Positions 2,082 through 9,665 of a stretch of 43,160 nt of DNA are shown in pieces. Source of the stretch: a virus. Made by a program: the position numbers and the translations under genes. Positions within the stretch are counted from its first letter, which is position 1; every line of letters begins with the position of its first letter. The DNA is taken from positions 1 through 43,160 of the IMG/VR virus record IMGVR_UViG_3300032093_000267; one strand, given 5' to 3'. Below the pieces are notes generated by a model. That model was given only the letters and a program-made list of their open reading frames with translations, made no database searches and had not been told where the DNA came from.

Positions 2082-2108
2082 AATGCCACCTTCGGGTGGC
2101 ATTTTTTT
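2082..2108 (+). terminator. Rho-independent terminator after gp32
   Basis: A 9-bp stem (2082-2090 with 2095-2103) closes on a C(TTCG)G tetraloop, followed by a T-run to 2108. It ends rightward transcription of the 59-HAD-32 group. The stop codon of the convergent gene (2107-2109) lies inside the T-run. On the minus strand no T-run follows the stem, so it looks one-directional. Confidence 0.9.
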
Positions 2109-4038
2109 ATGCTGGTACTTCTCTTCTCAATTGAGTAGTTTCGACCAATGTATTATTGGTGACACTTGCGTTTATCACTGTAGGATTTTTTGGTTTGGAT
2201 TGATTACGTTGTTCTACCGCAAGTTCTGTCGATGACTTACCAACATTCAATCCCTGACCCTTTTGTTCACCTGTAGCAGGATCGATTGTGGCACCAGTCT
2301 TAGATGTTACAACATCATCATCTGGTGTTGGTGGAGCACCTGCAGCAGTAACGTGCCAATCTTCACCTTTCACATTACGAATCAATCCAAATTTTTCTAG
2401 CCAACCAGTAGGTTTATCTCTAGTTCCAGCAAGAGCATTTAGACCATAAGGTTCTTTACTATCGATGTCAATACCTAAACCTTTAATATGAACACTACCC
2501 GTACCAGAACCTAATGGTGCCATAGGTTGTGCTACTTTACCACTTGGTCTACCATTGTTCTTTGCTAGGTCAGCATCATATAATTGTTTTTGTTTTTCAT
2601 TCGAACGATAACCAGAAGTGATTAACAGCATCTTACCAGTTTCTTGTTTGAATGCTGCGGCCATCGTTTCAACACGACTTTGAAAACCAGGATTAAAGTT
2701 AGAAGTGTCTACGCCCGCATCTGCTTTTTTTGTCAGTGTGTCTAAATTACCTTTTGGCACTTCCGTCTGTGCAAAAACAGGAGTTGTACCACCGCCAGAC
2801 CCTGCTGGAGTTGCAGCAATTTGTGTTGGTTGTTCTATTGGTGAAAAAACTGATTTACTTGATCTATACTTTCTATATTTTGATGGTGGTGCGGATGGAA
2901 GTACGATTGGTTCGACTTTCTTCCCACTTCTTTTCTGCTCATCCCTTTTCGCAATGAGTTCTTTTAGTGTATCTCTTTTCCAAGTGAGTTCTTCAATGTC
3001 ATCATCAAGAGCGTCTAATTGTTCCACAACACCAGCATATGGATCAATAGGTTTTTCTTTCTGTCCTGGTTTTGTTGCCGATGGTTCAATTCCTAGAACA
3101 TTCTTATCTAATGAACGACCTATACCTTTTAGTTTGCCTGCAATCCAATTACCAACACCGCCCAAAAACTCACCGATTCTTCTTGTCACGGGTGATATGA
3201 AATCACCGATAACATTCAGTGCTTTTGCTGCATCTTCTTTAGTAATTAATCCAAACGTTAAAAACTCAATTAGTTTAGATGTTTCTTCTACAAATATTGC
3301 ACCCCAATCCGTTGAATCAAAGAAATCATTGAATGCTGTTTTCAACGATTCGATGCCCATTGATATGATGCCTTCAACACCACCAAGACTTCCAATGATG
3401 CCTAAAATGGCATCTTTATTCATGAATAGAGCAAATCCTATTACTACTACAAGTGTTAGTAGTCCATCGAGAATACTATCAAGTACATTTCTAAAGAAAC
3501 CTTTTTTCTTCTTTACACTTTTTTTACGTTTTGTTTTTTCTGCTTTTTTAGTTTCTTTATCAGTTTCTTTTGGCTTAAAAAGATTGGTCAGTTTTGAACC
3601 AACATCTGGTTTCGCTACTGTCGTTACACCTTCAAGTTTGACAAATTGACCAAAACCTTTACTGATGAGTTTTAGTTCTTTACTTATTCTACGAAAAAGA
3701 ATTGTGTTCTTCGCAAATATTTTGAGTGCAGCGACACCTTCCAGCGTAGGACTTTTTTCACTTTCTTTCTTTTTGAACAGATCACCAAAATAAGATTTTT
3801 CTTTCTTATCATCCTGTTTCTTTTCGTCCTGCTCCACTTGCTCTTTATTTGATTCGGGAGCAGGTTGCTCCTTAGGTTTTGGTTCTTGTTTTGGTTCTTG
3901 TTTTGGTTCTGGCGGAGAGGGTGATGGTGCAGGCGGCGGTGCGGGCGCAGGTGTAGGTGGTAATTTAGGCGCAACTGGTACTACATTGCCGCCAGACTTT
4001 GGTGTTACCTTGTTTAAACCTTGACCGTAATCTGGCAT
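2107..4038 (-). CDS. Tape-measure/hub-like tail protein with M15 (VanY-type) peptidase domain
   Basis: A 643 aa protein. Residues 20-60 are Pro/Lys/Glu-rich. Residues 100-137 hold the block KIFAKNTILF...KLEG shared with the two genes upstream. A Lys-rich stretch (165-180) precedes a strong hydrophobic segment at about 184-220. FLTFGLITKEDAAK (259-272) is a second shared block. A putative coiled region follows at 336-370. The C-terminal 445-565 is an M15 D-Ala-D-Ala/L-Ala-D-Glu peptidase: ITSGYRS (473-479), SVHIKGLGID with zinc ligands H517 and D524, and EDWH with E559 and H562. It is predicted to cut peptidoglycan cross-links or stems when the tail contents enter the periplasm. It overlaps the stop of the previous gene as TAATG. 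Assignment as a virion tail protein (gp29-like) is inferred from size, hydrophobic segment and position next to gp26/51/54. Confidence 0.7.
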   Translation of the reverse strand: MPDYGQGLNKVTPKSGGNVVPVAPKLPPTPAPAPPPAPSPSPPEPKQEPKQEPKPKEQPAPESNKEQVEQDEKKQDDKKEKSYFGDLFKKKESEKSPTLEGVAALKIFAKNTILFRRISKELKLISKGFGQFVKLEGVTTVAKPDVGSKLTNLFKPKETDKETKKAEKTKRKKSVKKKKGFFRNVLDSILDGLLTLVVVIGFALFMNKDAILGIIGSLGGVEGIISMGIESLKTAFNDFFDSTDWGAIFVEETSKLIEFLTFGLITKEDAAKALNVIGDFISPVTRRIGEFLGGVGNWIAGKLKGIGRSLDKNVLGIEPSATKPGQKEKPIDPYAGVVEQLDALDDDIEELTWKRDTLKELIAKRDEQKRSGKKVEPIVLPSAPPSKYRKYRSSKSVFSPIEQPTQIAATPAGSGGGTTPVFAQTEVPKGNLDTLTKKADAGVDTSNFNPGFQSRVETMAAAFKQETGKMLLITSGYRSNEKQKQLYDADLAKNNGRPSGKVAQPMAPLGSGTGSVHIKGLGIDIDSKEPYGLNALAGTRDKPTGWLEKFGLIRNVKGEDWHVTAAGAPPTPDDDVVTSKTGATIDPATGEQKGQGLNVGKSSTELAVEQRNQSKPKNPTVINASVTNNTLVETTQLRREVPA

Positions 4039-6125
4039 TATGTTGCCCTTGCCAATAATGCGTCATTGCCGTTAATTGTCTTATCTACGGCAGCAACTTT
4101 TGTATCGGTTACTTTGGTATTATTAGTCTGTGCAACGTTTACTGTATTAACATCTTTTGGTTTCATTTGCTCTCTTTGACCCTGCGATACTTCTTTACTT
4201 GTACTAGCCAAATCTACATTCTCAAAACCTTTTGAATACTTGTCAACCTTTGCTAAAATTTCAGCACCAATACCAACATTTAAATTTAATCCAGCGCCAC
4301 CAATAGTTTGAGTTACTGCACGATTTGCTTCTTGCTGTGTTGTAAATGTATTGAGTTTTTTACCAAGACCTCTTATAATGAATGCTGCTGCTAGTTTAGC
4401 CGCAACAAATGGATCATTTGCTCTGTCTGGATTCTGAATCAAATCCTCACCAATAATTTTACCAAAAGCCTCATAATTATTTCTACCCGTGATTTGAATA
4501 AAACCACGGCCACGATATTTGTATCCATCACCATCTTCTTTGTTACCCATACCAGGACCACGTGCAGAGTTTTTACCATAAACAAACTCTGCTAGTGCTT
4601 GTGGATTATTTAAAAACTTTGCAAGTTCTTTTGGACCATAACCAGACTTTTTGACTGTGCTAGGAAATACTTCTTGTATACGCTGAACTGAAGTATAGTT
4701 TAGATTTTCATTTTTCGGTACAAAGTTAGATTCTTTTTGAATGTTTGCAAGTAAAGCGATCTTGGTAAACCTATTCGTTATACCCAATTCATTCATTGCA
4801 GTTATGATTAATCCAATCATACCTTTTGCACCTTCTGCTGTTGGTTTGGTTGGTGCGTAAGCAGGTGCAGGTCTCGGTGCTGCCGCTTCTTTTCGCATAG
4901 CACCTTCTTTTTGTATTGCATCGTTCAATGCTTTTTCAGTCTTACGAAGTTCTTCTTTTTTCTTAATAACTTGTTCTGTCTCTTCAGTTTTTTTACCATA
5001 AGCATCAATTTCAAGCGCAGCAATTTCATCAATCAATGCATCTCGTTGTGCGGTTTTCTGTGTAACTAATTCTTGTGCTTTGAGCAAATTCTCGGCAAGT
5101 TGTTCGTTTCGCTTTCTATTTTCTTCCGCAGCGGCATCTTGTTTATCTCTATCATCTACCAGTTTTGCAATGTCTGCATCAGTTAAAGGTTTAGTTTTTA
5201 GTGGATTCATATCGGATATTTTCTGAATCAAACCTGAAACTAAATCATCAATTGCTTTTGCTGCATCAGAAATAAAATCACCAATTTTACTAGGAAAACT
5301 AATCAGGAAATTAATAGTACCATCAATTACTTTGGCAGCAGTTTCCTTATCGAAAAGACCGAATGTCAATGAGTCTATTAAACCTGAAATTCCTGCTATT
5401 AAAGTTTTATACCAATCGCCAGTTTCTTGCCAAGTATCCCACGCATCGGTCAATCCATCCCATAATGTCCATATAATTAGCACGACCCAGCCCAATGGAC
5501 CAGATGCGATTGCGGCAGTTCGTGCTGCAACCTTTACTGCTGCTTTGCCTACTTTCTTTGCTGCCTGTTTAGCGATCTTGGTTGCTTCTTTTTTCTCAAG
5601 TTCTTTTATCTTATCACCGACAATCCTATCTGAAAGTTTTGTAAGATATTTCCAAGCATTCTTTGCATAGTCTTTAACTTTATCAAGTAGTTGTTTTGCA
5701 AACTTCTTTATATTATCCATTAACGACTTGAATAATTTTTTTGCTTTATCCTTAACTTGTGTTGCTAGTTTTTTTGCACCCTCTTTAATCTTTTTAAATT
5801 TTGCACCTTTAGAACTTTTAGGATCATCTTCTGCGGTTGGAGTTCTGGCAGCAATTTCTTTTCCTTGTTCTACTGCAAATTTCTTTTCTACTTCTTCTTG
5901 CTTCAGCAAATGCATATCTTCTTTATCGGCAGACTTTATACCATACAGTCCAACAAGCGTGATTATATTTTGCCGAACGATATTGAGGTCGCCTGCCGCT
6001 TTTGACAACTCGGAATAATTGAGTGCTGCTTTTTTTAAAGATTTGTGAGCAGGAGTTACTTTTTTTGATGAGTCCTCATTCAGGACTTTCTTCTTGATCG
6101 TCAGACCTAAAATATTGGATAACAC
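4038..6125 (-). CDS. Tape-measure/hub-like tail protein with GH19 lysozyme/chitinase domain
   Basis: A 695 aa paralogue of its two neighbours. The N-terminal block AALNYSEL...NIVRQNI (33-62) matches NVLRQNI in the 625 aa gene upstream. A Lys/Ala-rich amphipathic region (105-200) and a hydrophobic segment (205-225) follow, then SLTFGLFDKETAAK (252-265). A long Glu/Lys coiled-coil region spans about 315-410. Residues 434-620 are a glycoside hydrolase family 19 domain: ANIQKESNF (likely catalytic E465) and YRGRGFIQITGRNNY (537-551), the family signature. It probably cleaves murein glycan strands. The start is GTG, one base after the upstream stop, which suggests coupled translation. It presumably acts from within the tail during DNA entry; a free endolysin role is less likely given its large structural N-terminus. 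Confidence 0.72.
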   Translation of the reverse strand: MLSNILGLTIKKKVLNEDSSKKVTPAHKSLKKAALNYSELSKAAGDLNIVRQNIITLVGLYGIKSADKEDMHLLKQEEVEKKFAVEQGKEIAARTPTAEDDPKSSKGAKFKKIKEGAKKLATQVKDKAKKLFKSLMDNIKKFAKQLLDKVKDYAKNAWKYLTKLSDRIVGDKIKELEKKEATKIAKQAAKKVGKAAVKVAARTAAIASGPLGWVVLIIWTLWDGLTDAWDTWQETGDWYKTLIAGISGLIDSLTFGLFDKETAAKVIDGTINFLISFPSKIGDFISDAAKAIDDLVSGLIQKISDMNPLKTKPLTDADIAKLVDDRDKQDAAAEENRKRNEQLAENLLKAQELVTQKTAQRDALIDEIAALEIDAYGKKTEETEQVIKKKEELRKTEKALNDAIQKEGAMRKEAAAPRPAPAYAPTKPTAEGAKGMIGLIITAMNELGITNRFTKIALLANIQKESNFVPKNENLNYTSVQRIQEVFPSTVKKSGYGPKELAKFLNNPQALAEFVYGKNSARGPGMGNKEDGDGYKYRGRGFIQITGRNNYEAFGKIIGEDLIQNPDRANDPFVAAKLAAAFIIRGLGKKLNTFTTQQEANRAVTQTIGGAGLNLNVGIGAEILAKVDKYSKGFENVDLASTSKEVSQGQREQMKPKDVNTVNVAQTNNTKVTDTKVAAVDKTINGNDALLARAT

Positions 6126-6126
6126 T

Positions 6127-8004
6127 TTAGGCCGTCATGTAGTTGTTGATAAAACTTGTATTATAGACACTAGCAATATTTTCAGGCTCTTTACCTTTTG
6201 TGCCTGCTTGATTATTTGTTGTGGGTGCATCAATTGTAACACCAGCATCTGCGGCAGAATCCATTCGTTGACCTTCAGCAACTTCGGACGATACCGAAGA
6301 TAGTGCTGCACCAGAAACTGAAGGAGATGATTCTGATGATGGACTTGGCGACACTGCACCACCACCACTCATACCACTTTCACCACCTCCAGAAATACTA
6401 CCACCACCTGTTGATGGCATTGATGCTGCTGGTGCTGCTGTTGGTGTTGTTACTGGTGTTGCTGCTTTTTGCCCTCTGGCATTTTGAAGAATTTTAGTTG
6501 GTTCACCGCCAACTGCGGCGACTTCTTGACGAACTGCTTCTTCGGATAACTGCTCACCAGTTTTATCATCAACAAAACCTGTTGGTGAATTCGGATCAAC
6601 GGTAATACCAAGTTTTGTTTTTAGAAAACCAACAGCACCTTTTTGATCTTTTTCAGCATTCTTAGCACTATATGGATCTTCTTTCGAGGGTGATGTTCCA
6701 ACTTTTTCCGCTAGTTTACCCGCTGCTTCTGGTGATGTACTTGCTGCTTTGTCTTTTTCTTTTTGCTCTTCTTTTGCTTTTCTTTCTTTATCATAAAAGA
6801 CACCTTCTCCACTATCAAGTTTTGCTTGATTTTCTTTTAATGCAGTTGTAGCACCTGAGGTATATGATTCAGTTGCAGTGCTGGTTGTATCCTTTTTAAA
6901 TGGATAGTACGGCTTAGTATCATTTATTAATGTATAAGAAGATGGAAGTGATGATTTGCCCCGAGATGCTATTGATACTGCTTTTTGTAACCAATCAGGA
7001 AAATTTATTGTAGTAAATTTTGAAAATGGTATTCCAGGTATACCTATATTTTTAAAAAAACTAACTGTATCATCAAAGAATTGGGTAACACTTAACATCA
7101 AAGGATTCAAATACTTTAGTGCTGTATCCATTCCTTTGCGTAGATCATTCTCGTTGAATAAACCAAACGTGATGAATTGTAAAAAGCCACCAAGAGCAGA
7201 TATAAGTGTATCGGTAATACTACCAGTTTCTTTAAACGTGTTGATTGCATCCATAATCCCGTTGATCAAACCACCAATGATCATAGCAGGTATAAATATC
7301 TTACTTAGAATGGCTAAGATAGAACCACCACTAAACAACGCACCGAATGCACCAACGATTCCCATAAACAGACCTTTCAGTAAGTTTATGGGATTCAACA
7401 TGTCCATTAAGCCAGATAGAAGTCCACCACCACCACCTTCTTTCTTTTCTTCTTTTGGTTCTTTCTTATCTTTGCCGTATGCAGTTGGTGTATTTTTCTT
7501 TCGTTCTTCCTCTAGTTTTGCTTCACGTAAATCTTCAGTCTGAAAGAATTTATCTGCTTTACCTTCTGCTTTTACTTTACTCTCTTTACCTTTTAGATTA
7601 ACCAGTTTAGAAATATTCTGGCGGAGCACATTCATATCACGTGCCATACCAGGTAGAACAATAGAGTTCTTAGCAATTACATTTAGAAATGGTAAAACAT
7701 CTGCACTTATTCCACCAGCAGATTCGACTTGAGCACCTTCTGCGCCTTCTCTTGTGGGTGAATTTTTCTTATCTTGTTTAGATGGGGTTTTATCATTCTT
7801 ACCCTTTTCATCCCCATAATCAATAAATTTACCCGCAGCAAAACCTGCGATTTTACCAAACATACCCGTACCAAAAACTTCTTGCACAGCATTTTGGATA
7901 TCTTTTTCACTTGCTCGGCGCAAACCCTCTACTTCATCTTTACTGCCACCTGCGGCTTCAAGCAAATTGGCTAGAGTAGTCTTTGATAGTTTTAGTTTTG
8001 CCAT
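6127..8004 (-). CDS. Tape-measure/hub-like tail protein, no enzymatic domain seen
   Basis: A 625 aa paralogue of the next two genes. Shared blocks are NVIAKNSIVL...NVLRQNISKLVNLKG (109-138) and FITFGLFNENDLRK (277-290). A Gly-rich run (190-194) leads into a long hydrophobic stretch (about 195-262) that could cross a membrane. The C-terminal third is Pro/Ser/Ala/Gly-rich low-complexity sequence and ends with IASVYNTSFINNYMTA; no hydrolase motif is visible. It is the first gene after gp26-gp51 and shares TAATG with the gp51 stop. Size (T4 gp29 tape measure is about 590 aa), membrane segment and position directly after the chaperone-like pair make it a candidate tape measure. T4 gp29 similarity itself is not evident to the eye. 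Confidence 0.55.
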   Translation of the reverse strand: MAKLKLSKTTLANLLEAAGGSKDEVEGLRRASEKDIQNAVQEVFGTGMFGKIAGFAAGKFIDYGDEKGKNDKTPSKQDKKNSPTREGAEGAQVESAGGISADVLPFLNVIAKNSIVLPGMARDMNVLRQNISKLVNLKGKESKVKAEGKADKFFQTEDLREAKLEEERKKNTPTAYGKDKKEPKEEKKEGGGGGLLSGLMDMLNPINLLKGLFMGIVGAFGALFSGGSILAILSKIFIPAMIIGGLINGIMDAINTFKETGSITDTLISALGGFLQFITFGLFNENDLRKGMDTALKYLNPLMLSVTQFFDDTVSFFKNIGIPGIPFSKFTTINFPDWLQKAVSIASRGKSSLPSSYTLINDTKPYYPFKKDTTSTATESYTSGATTALKENQAKLDSGEGVFYDKERKAKEEQKEKDKAASTSPEAAGKLAEKVGTSPSKEDPYSAKNAEKDQKGAVGFLKTKLGITVDPNSPTGFVDDKTGEQLSEEAVRQEVAAVGGEPTKILQNARGQKAATPVTTPTAAPAASMPSTGGGSISGGGESGMSGGGAVSPSPSSESSPSVSGAALSSVSSEVAEGQRMDSAADAGVTIDAPTTNNQAGTKGKEPENIASVYNTSFINNYMTA

Positions 8005-8144
8005 TACTTTCTACTTTGTTTTTGTTGATTGATACGTTCTTTTTCCTCTTCAAGGTATTTTACTAATAACGAAATGTAAATGCTTCTTTCCCAAGGTATC
8101 ATATTTTCAAGTTCAGACAAACTATACTTGTGGTGTTGCATCAT
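8004..8144 (-). CDS. gp51: gp51-like baseplate hub assembly protein; frame open back into gp26
   Basis: A short frame of 46 aa from the first ATG (8144), beginning MMQHHKYSLSELENMIPWER and ending in a charged helix (YLEEEKERINQQ). The HHKYSL-ELE-MIPWER core is what I recall for gp51-type hub assembly factors of T4-like phages, and position after gp26 agrees. The same frame is open further upstream to 8216 with protein-like sequence (RHESLGNYYQTNFA), overlapping the end of gp26 in the -1 frame. There is no convincing ribosome site before ATG 8144. Expression as a 64-residue C-terminal extension of gp26 by -1 frameshifting is therefore plausible, giving a 306 aa fusion. The stop overlaps the next start as TAATG. 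Confidence 0.7.
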   Translation of the reverse strand: MMQHHKYSLSELENMIPWERSIYISLLVKYLEEEKERINQQKQSRK

Positions 8145-8160
8145 CGCAAAGTTTGTCTGA
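8113..8160 (-). repeat. 10-bp perfect inverted repeat inside the gp51 frame
   Basis: Minus-strand TCAGACAAAC (8160-8151) pairs with GTTTGTCTGA (8122-8113) around a 28-base loop that contains the internal ATG codons at 8144 and 8141. It begins 37 bases after the slippery heptamer, longer than the usual 5-9 base spacer for a frameshift stimulator. It could hide the internal start or be coincidental. Confidence 0.4.
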
Positions 8161-8191
8161 TAGTAATTACCTAGTGATTCATGACGAAATA

Positions 8192-8923
8192 TTAAACGAA
8201 AAAATTTTGTAGACCTTTAATCTCAATGTCTTCCTCATATCCACACTTGCCGCATTTGAAGTGGACATCTTTTTTAATTTCAGGCATTGTATCAAAGAAC
8301 TTTTTAATTTTTTCCAGGTCTTTCTGTTGCATAGAATCGATGAACTCCATCAACTCTTCTTTTGGGGTATCTTTGGCATAGTATACTTGTTCATCATCAT
8401 AAAGATAATCAATACAATCAATCAGTACATTTACCAGAATTTGATTCTCGTCCATGTTCTCATAGTTCTGAATCATCTCAAATGTTGGATATCTCAAACA
8501 GATACCAACCTTATCATTTAACATAAACTTAGTTTCATGATCTTCATGTTTTGTCGGTTCGATTTCTAACAAATTCAAATTGAAATCTACCGAACCAGAA
8601 CATTTCTTAGTCTCACCTTTGTCATCGATAATATCATTGTTGCACTTGTATTTGAGTTCGACAACTTCCTCTACTGACCGAGCACGAAGATTCATAAACA
8701 AATATTCAAGGTCAAATGTAGGTAAGTTATCAATATCAATTTCATCAATTACACAATTCTTTAATACTTGACGAATGGTATTGATTGTCTCTTTCGGGTC
8801 CTCTGATTCTGCTGCCATCAGAAACAACTTTTGTTCTTTTACTAGGAATGGACGAATGCGAACATCCTGACCATTTGAAATGAGTTTGATAGTATAAATT
8901 GGTACATCAAGTTTTGGTAACAT
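8192..8923 (-). CDS. gp26: gp26-like baseplate hub assembly protein (T4_baseplate family)
   Basis: A 243 aa protein of the gp26 type, needed in T4 for assembly of the baseplate hub. The N-terminus (LPKLDVPIYTIKLISNG followed by IRPFLVKEQKLFLMA) and the LPTFDLEYLFMNLRARSVEE block are characteristic of this family in T4-like phages. Cysteines fall in two groups: KYKC and KKCSG around 110-127, and FKCGKCGYEEDI near the C-terminus (CxxC), suggesting a metal-binding knuckle. A strong ribosome site (GAGAGGAAA) stands 5 bases before ATG. The last two Phe codons form a slippery run and the gp51 frame overlaps at -1, so this gene may yield a short form and a longer gp26-51 fusion. Confidence 0.8.
   Translation of the reverse strand: MLPKLDVPIYTIKLISNGQDVRIRPFLVKEQKLFLMAAESEDPKETINTIRQVLKNCVIDEIDIDNLPTFDLEYLFMNLRARSVEEVVELKYKCNNDIIDDKGETKKCSGSVDFNLNLLEIEPTKHEDHETKFMLNDKVGICLRYPTFEMIQNYENMDENQILVNVLIDCIDYLYDDEQVYYAKDTPKEELMEFIDSMQQKDLEKIKKFFDTMPEIKKDVHFKCGKCGYEEDIEIKGLQNFFV
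8198..8204 (-). other. Putative -1 ribosomal frameshift site T_TTT_TTC
   Basis: On the minus strand gp26 codons 241-242 are TTT TTC preceded by T, forming a canonical X_XXY_YYZ heptamer in which both Phe tRNAs re-pair perfectly after slipping back one base. The gp26 stop follows after one more codon (GTT TAA). The -1 frame then runs through the gp51 sequence to 8004. Functional use is inferred; no protein data are available here. Confidence 0.55.
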
Positions 8924-8936
8924 AATTTCCTCTCAA

Positions 8937-9665
8937 TTAGAATGATAATAATCTTGTTGCTGCACTGCCACCTAAAGAAGCAAGTGTTTGTCCAATATCA
9001 TATTTACCTTCAAAGATAGAACGATATTTCTGATAACTGAATTGAACTGATAAACGGTGAAATGCATCGTCACCCCAACTTAATGCTTGAGGTGAAATAC
9101 CAGTTGGGAATGCATCAATCAAATCCACTGCATAAATTTGACGAACTATATCGTCATATTGTATGACACGAATATTCGTCAAGTATCTTGATGCCGTACT
9201 TTTTGGAAAACGAGCATTGTTTGTGTCAGGTGGAATGATAGCATCCATCCAGCGTTCAAACAATTTACGTTCATAGAATTCATTGGTACAGATAAATGTT
9301 AATGTAGTTTCCGAATACTGCATACGATAAGGCACTTTGAAAGACGGACCATATATTCTTGCGTCTGCGGTTTCTAATGTTCGGCCTGGCAACTCTGCTG
9401 ATTCACATTGAAGAGCAAGATATCGAGACACTGACGGATTAGATGATTGCATTCGATCAGACTCACTACCTATAGCACTATTGATTGCGTCCGACACATC
9501 AGAAAAAACTGAATTTGGAAAGTTCAATACTTTTTCCAAAAATGAATTTCCTATCGATTGACCAATATACGGTGGAATAGGTAATATAACTTCAAACCTA
9601 TTTGACCTAGCGGGACCGCCTTTGCCATTGATGTTTGATAGAAATAGATTAGGTGAAAACGACAT
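8937..9665 (-). CDS. gp54: gp54-like baseplate tail-tube initiator (tube-fold protein)
   Basis: A 242 aa protein with the T4 tube fold seen in gp19 and gp54: N-terminal RSNRFEVILPIPP, ESAELPGRTLETADARIYGP, a strand-rich centre with FICTNEFYERKLFERWMDAI, and C-terminal VDLIDAFPTGISPQALSW followed by LSVQFSYQKYRSI. In T4, gp54 sits on the hub with gp48 and starts tube polymerisation. Its pairing with gp48 (10727) across the divergent junction and adjacency to gp26 favours gp54; a tube protein gp19 is the alternative, but the approx. 50-residue insertion at 35-85 and location among baseplate genes argue against it. The start overlaps the previous stop as TAATG and is preceded by GAGGA. Confidence 0.65.
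   Translation of the reverse strand: MSFSPNLFLSNINGKGGPARSNRFEVILPIPPYIGQSIGNSFLEKVLNFPNSVFSDVSDAINSAIGSESDRMQSSNPSVSRYLALQCESAELPGRTLETADARIYGPSFKVPYRMQYSETTLTFICTNEFYERKLFERWMDAIIPPDTNNARFPKSTASRYLTNIRVIQYDDIVRQIYAVDLIDAFPTGISPQALSWGDDAFHRLSVQFSYQKYRSIFEGKYDIGQTLASLGGSAATRLLSF

Follow-up and report, generated by a model that had tools for sequence, protein, structure and literature searches.

Gene 26 of the window, a 43,160-nucleotide stretch of viral DNA (IMG/VR record IMGVR_UViG_3300032093_000267), very probably encodes two proteins. In this reading, gp26 is made as a short chaperone, and a -1 slip on the heptamer T_TTT_TTC near the end of the gene yields a long gp26-gp51 form of 306 aa. 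That gp26 and gp26-51 represent the short and long forms of one tail-assembly chaperone is well supported at the level of sequence comparison.

The proposed slip site at the end of gene 26

The gene, its proposed slip site and the predicted products are located as follows.

8192..8923, minus strand: gene 26 homologue, 243 aa, predicted short tail-assembly chaperone (TAC-N, lambda gpG-like role; PF12322, phrog_150)
8198..8204, minus strand: T_TTT_TTC heptamer, candidate slippery site for a -1 frameshift, X_XXY_YYZ in gp26 phase
8192..8194, minus strand: gp26 stop TAA, one codon (GTT) past the slip codons
8004..8198, minus strand: gp51 (T-like) domain, -1 frame extension of 64 aa past the slip, without its own start (phrog_634, selection)
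8004..8923, minus strand: predicted gp26-gp51 frameshift product, 306 aa (TAC-NC, lambda gpGT-like role; reading frames, homology)

The gp26 protein matched PF12322 (T4_baseplate), the domain of the T4 gp26/gp51 chaperone family, with an E value of 8.9e-62, and phrog_150 with an E value of 1e-69. Its ATG at 8923 (minus strand) is preceded by the Shine-Dalgarno sequence GAGAGG. On the minus strand and in its own frame, the gene ends with AAT (8206-8204), TTT (8203-8201), TTC (8200-8198), GTT and TAA (8194-8192). This places T_TTT_TTC at 8204-8198, as had been reported in a preliminary description of this DNA. The site is a canonical X_XXY_YYZ heptamer near the 3' end of the first ORF and in its frame, an arrangement of the lambda G/GT type. 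The upstream limit of the open -1 frame lies only 25 nt before the end of the gp26 stop, so that only the final few codons of gp26 allow a -1 slip.

The AlphaFold model of gp26 had a pLDDT of 86.8. In a Foldseek search with this model, the HK97 tail-assembly chaperone 2ob9 had the highest probability among the matches listed (0.66). This match is weak and serves as a hint only, because its E value was 0.5. A PDB sequence search for relatives of gp26 found none.

Conservation of the heptamer

A search of IMG/VR with gp26 returned 80 loci that were 71-100% identical. TTTTTTC was present right before the gp26 stop in all 80, a conservation across gp26/51 junctions that the preliminary description had proposed to look for. 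Among wider relatives, it was found in 55 of the 64 gp26 clusters formed at 90% identity and in 16 of the 24 formed at 70% identity. Several of the remaining clusters carried longer T runs or TTTTTTG. With wider sampling, T_TTT_TTC was also found across Kyanoviridae/cyanophages and in KVP40, CC2 and Nitratidesulfovibrio phage SRB7757. The slip position was occupied by T_TTT_TTG in Rhizobium phages (N34) and by T_TTT_TTT_TAA in Melnitz-1, with the T run abutting the TAA. Scans of IMG/VR with other gp26 queries gave two loci for KVP40, one for Rhizobium and none for Nitratidesulfovibrio.

The choice of codons at the site was then compared with that in the rest of the gene. Of 68 FF pairs at other positions in these genes, only 2 were written TTT-TTC, and the codon preceding the slip FF ended in T in 57/57 clusters. 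In the window clade, AAT TTT TTC was the sole run with a single codon per position within the last 60 gp26 codons, despite the availability of synonymous alternatives. The heptamer is conserved far more than would be expected by chance.

The -1 frame extension

Read in the -1 frame from the slip, the DNA encodes FFRLIFRHESLGNYYQTNFAMMQHHKYSLSELENMIPWERSIYISLLVKYLEEEKERINQQKQSRK, which is 66 residues counting FF, followed by a stop at 8006-8004. The earlier claims that this frame is open for 64 codons to 8004, through the gp51 core, and that the fusion would be 306 aa long both agree with the translation and the reading frames (242 + 64 = 306 aa). The extension matched phrog_634, 'baseplate hub assembly catalyst' (gp51), with an E value of 2.6e-28, and the alignment began at residue 2 of FFRLIF. 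It also weakly matched the C-terminal end of phrog_150, because T4-type gp51 matches phrog_150 almost end to end. When the extension was compared with 50,697 phage records by tblastn, 649 records were matched at E 0.01. Among the matches listed, residue 1 or 2 was the first to be aligned, and the gp51 homology thus sets in at the Phe codons of the slip. The extension is present but unannotated in the public records of S-WAM1 (L081 2013-2204) and Aeromonas phage CC2 (L091 3208-3376).

Beyond the gp26 stop, the -1 frame was free of stops for 40 codons in 63/63 cluster representatives. Over the same 40 codons, frame 0 was stopped in 62/63 and the +1 frame in 63/63. In no relative was the -1 frame interrupted by a stop on the way from the heptamer to the gp51 core; the preliminary description had named such a stop as evidence against its proposal. 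Substitutions were analysed in 20 window-clade representatives. From the slip to the ATG, the -1 frame had a pS of 0.54, a pN of 0.06 and a dN/dS of 0.066, and the two other frames of the stretch past the gp26 stop had dN/dS values of 1.2 and 1.1. The pattern was reversed in gp26 upstream of the slip, where dN/dS was 0.059 for frame 0 and 2.6 for the -1 frame. Judged by these substitutions, purifying selection between the slip and the first ATG is strong and confined to the -1 frame, and the earlier remark that the sequence looks like protein ahead of that ATG holds. Thus, as in lambda G/GT, the second ORF overlaps the first in the -1 frame, is open and under protein-level selection, and lacks initiation signals of its own.

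Start signals and alternative explanations

In the -1 frame, ATG first occurs at 8144-8142. In the window clade, 50, 53 or 92 nt separated the gp26 stop from the first -1-frame ATG. A Shine-Dalgarno match was found at this ATG in 0/20 window-clade representatives, compared with 19/20 at the gp26 start. This result confirms the earlier statement that ATG 8144 has no clear ribosome site. A conserved start with a ribosome site for a separate gp51 was looked for among the relatives, and none was found. Separate initiation at ATG 8144 was rejected, as it lacks a Shine-Dalgarno sequence and purifying selection starts ahead of it.

Some cyanophages, KVP40 and Rhizobium phages have a T-frame ATG within a few nucleotides of the gp26 stop (2-8 nt in cyanophages and KVP40). 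Coupled re-initiation could therefore operate in the cyanophages and KVP40 that carry it at this distance. This near-stop ATG is missing in other cyanophages (L108-L111, L139, L167-L177), and therefore there is no conserved start. More generally, a small gp51 could be made separately from ATG 8144 or from a non-AUG codon near the gp26 stop, via translational coupling, and the T run would then be just two Phe codons. The near-stop ATG of many cyanophages, which is in the right frame and from which public records annotate gp51, is consistent with this explanation. However, we consider it very unlikely. The window clade offers only the distant ATG without a Shine-Dalgarno sequence, the frame ahead of it is conserved, and coupling leaves the frozen TTT TTC codons unexplained.

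Transcriptional slippage would give the same product by another route. If RNA polymerase added a U within the T6 run, some mRNAs would encode the 306 aa fusion in frame; one extra U gives the identical NFFRLIF protein, and runs of T7-T8 do occur in some relatives. However, six T residues are short for efficient slippage by bacterial polymerase. Moreover, the run is usually exactly TTTTTTC, phased as X_XXY_YYZ in the gp26 frame, and TTTTTTG occurs too. Transcriptional slippage is thus extremely unlikely. Finally, T4-type phages carry the fused form as one ORF, and an error of assembly or sequencing in such a single ORF could mimic the gp26/gp51 overlap. The probability of this is negligible; independent sequences refute it, as the overlap is present in 80/80 close relatives from IMG/VR and in phages that were isolated and sequenced separately.

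Comparison with the two genes of T4-type phages

T2 gp51 (249 aa) matched PF12322 over residues 1-201 and phrog_150 over residues 3-248, and T2 gp26 matched T2 gp51 by BLASTP with an E value of 1e-5. By hhalign, the gp26 profile of the window family aligned with residues 4-198 of T4-type gp51 (E 1e-10), and the profile of the extension aligned with residues 200-245 (E 3.9e-7), at its C-terminus. Since the two profiles align to consecutive halves, T4-type gp51 is, by homology, a gp26-like domain followed by a gp51 domain, that is, the fusion as a single gene.

We then counted PF12322 genes. Exactly one was found in 13/13 records of the overlap type and two in 6/6 records of the T4 type (T2 and five others), which is the pattern predicted if the two layouts are functionally equivalent. 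The window record, which is a 43 kb fragment only, has one PF12322 gene; the T4 layout, with a separate full-length gp51 carrying a second PF12322 domain, was not found in this record. T4 gp26 is homologous to the window gp26 throughout, and T4-type gp51 corresponds to both halves of the fusion. In contrast to the window phage, which has one gp26-domain gene and a slip site, T4-type phages have two separate, divergent genes and no frameshift. T4 obtains the same short/long pair through gene duplication. T4 gp26 and gp51 have been listed as hub assembly chaperones, gp51 being required and yet absent from the final particle (PMC3004832). The present model would give both proteins one explanation, as the short and long forms of one chaperone.

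Gene neighbourhood and possible stimulators

The genes on either side of the locus and two elements close to the slip site are listed below.

8937..9665, minus strand: member of the tail-tube family, encoded immediately upstream (phrog_45 tail tube, E 2.2e-37)
6127..8004, minus strand: hydrophobic protein of 625 aa, encoded immediately downstream; tape-measure or hub candidate (position, composition)
8214..8218, minus strand: AAAGG, SD-like, possible stimulator, 9 nt ahead of the heptamer
8113..8160, minus strand: potential hairpin, some 37 nt past the heptamer; it would enclose ATG 8144

The 625 aa downstream protein had no Pfam or PHROG match. The gp51 stop overlaps the start of its gene in TAATG (8002-8006, minus strand), and no clear Shine-Dalgarno sequence lies ahead. 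Because of this overlap, translation of the 625 aa gene could be coupled to frameshifted ribosomes. Three consecutive large proteins (625, 695 and 643 aa) are encoded on the minus strand at 2107-8004. The 695 aa protein has a GH19 chitinase-like domain and the 643 aa protein a VanY-like peptidase domain, each together with a weak tape-measure match.

It is possible that AAAGG acts as an internal Shine-Dalgarno sequence and stimulates the slip, which would be plausible from its sequence. This role is put forward with caution, because the [KRE]-G residues that it encodes are conserved and may alone explain its retention. The arms of the hairpin are TCAGACAAACT and AGTTTGTCTGA (8113-8160, minus strand). 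In the window clade, 88.7% of cells were paired, with little synonymous change in the arms, and no compensatory changes were seen. No consensus RNA structure was found downstream of the slip in cyanophages. The hairpin is far downstream and limited to one clade, and we do not claim it as a canonical stimulatory structure, because it lacks compensatory change and is absent from cyanophages.

Proposed mechanism and relation to known systems

We infer the occurrence of slippage, its efficiency and the role of its product in assembly as follows. The gene 26 product would be the short tail-assembly chaperone. On AAT TTT TTC GTT TAA, a minority of ribosomes would slip back by one base while both tRNA-Phe are on TTT TTC, and the tRNAs would re-pair on TTT TTT. 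Now reading in the -1 frame, the slipped ribosomes would bypass the gp26 stop and append the 64-residue gp51 domain. The tape-measure protein of lambda is coated by gpG, and tube subunits are brought in through the T part of gpGT (PMC5009743). If the present pair works like gpG/gpGT, the N-terminal part common to both forms may coat the tape-measure protein, and the added gp51 domain may recruit tube subunits.

The locus, which we take to be the T4-superfamily counterpart of lambda gpG/gpGT, resembles it in having a short protein and a longer frameshifted form, a slip where the first ORF ends, a position after a tail-tube family gene, and a second ORF without its own start. It differs in belonging to another sequence family (PF12322) and in its slippery site, T_TTT_TTC. 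A 2016 review described the G-T frameshift as conserved in long-tailed phages 'except T4' (PMC5009743), and the T4-type layout seen here agrees with T4 as that exception. In the Vandenendeviridae/Andersonviridae TAC locus (phage Adele; PMC12846349), the -1 frame is likewise open in every allele and a conserved T-rich slip lies near the end of TAC-N, whereas the phage families and the slip motif (GTTTTT) are different.

The preliminary description knew of no report of such a fusion for T4-like gp26/51. For the phenomenon itself, this does not stand. Vladimirov, Gautam and Davidson (Virology 2022) are cited in later papers as having identified the chaperone genes of T4-like phages. In the passages that cite this study, some T4-like phages are described as carrying two copies, a short one and a longer fusion, in place of a frameshift (PMC10885494), and polyT slippery sequences are described as known -1 signals in the TAC-N genes of T4-like phages (PMC12846349). 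As these papers credit the 2022 study, the phenomenon and its T4-superfamily setting appear to be at least partly known. What is new here is a further frameshift locus and the breadth of its conservation; the kind of system is already known. The model would explain why 'gp51' is inconsistently annotated or missing in cyanophages and their relatives, as it would be the tail of a frameshift product and not a gene of its own. Culturable phages, among them KVP40 and Synechococcus phages, would allow a direct test of it.

Ackermannviridae (L088, L089, L189, L094) and the Vibrio phages K382 and SUMAE (L090, L188) likewise have one copy of gp26, whose end is overlapped by a gp51-like domain in the -1 frame. 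Their overlaps contain ATTTTC, CTTTTC or GTTTTC (NTT_TTC) in place of the canonical heptamer. A broader scenario, which we offer tentatively and regard as somewhat doubtful, is that -1 frameshifting was ancestral for the long chaperone of the T4 superfamily. T_TTT_TTC would then be near-universal outside the T4 type, where duplication took its place, and Ackermannviridae and some Vibrio phages would keep the overlap with the non-canonical NTT_TTC.
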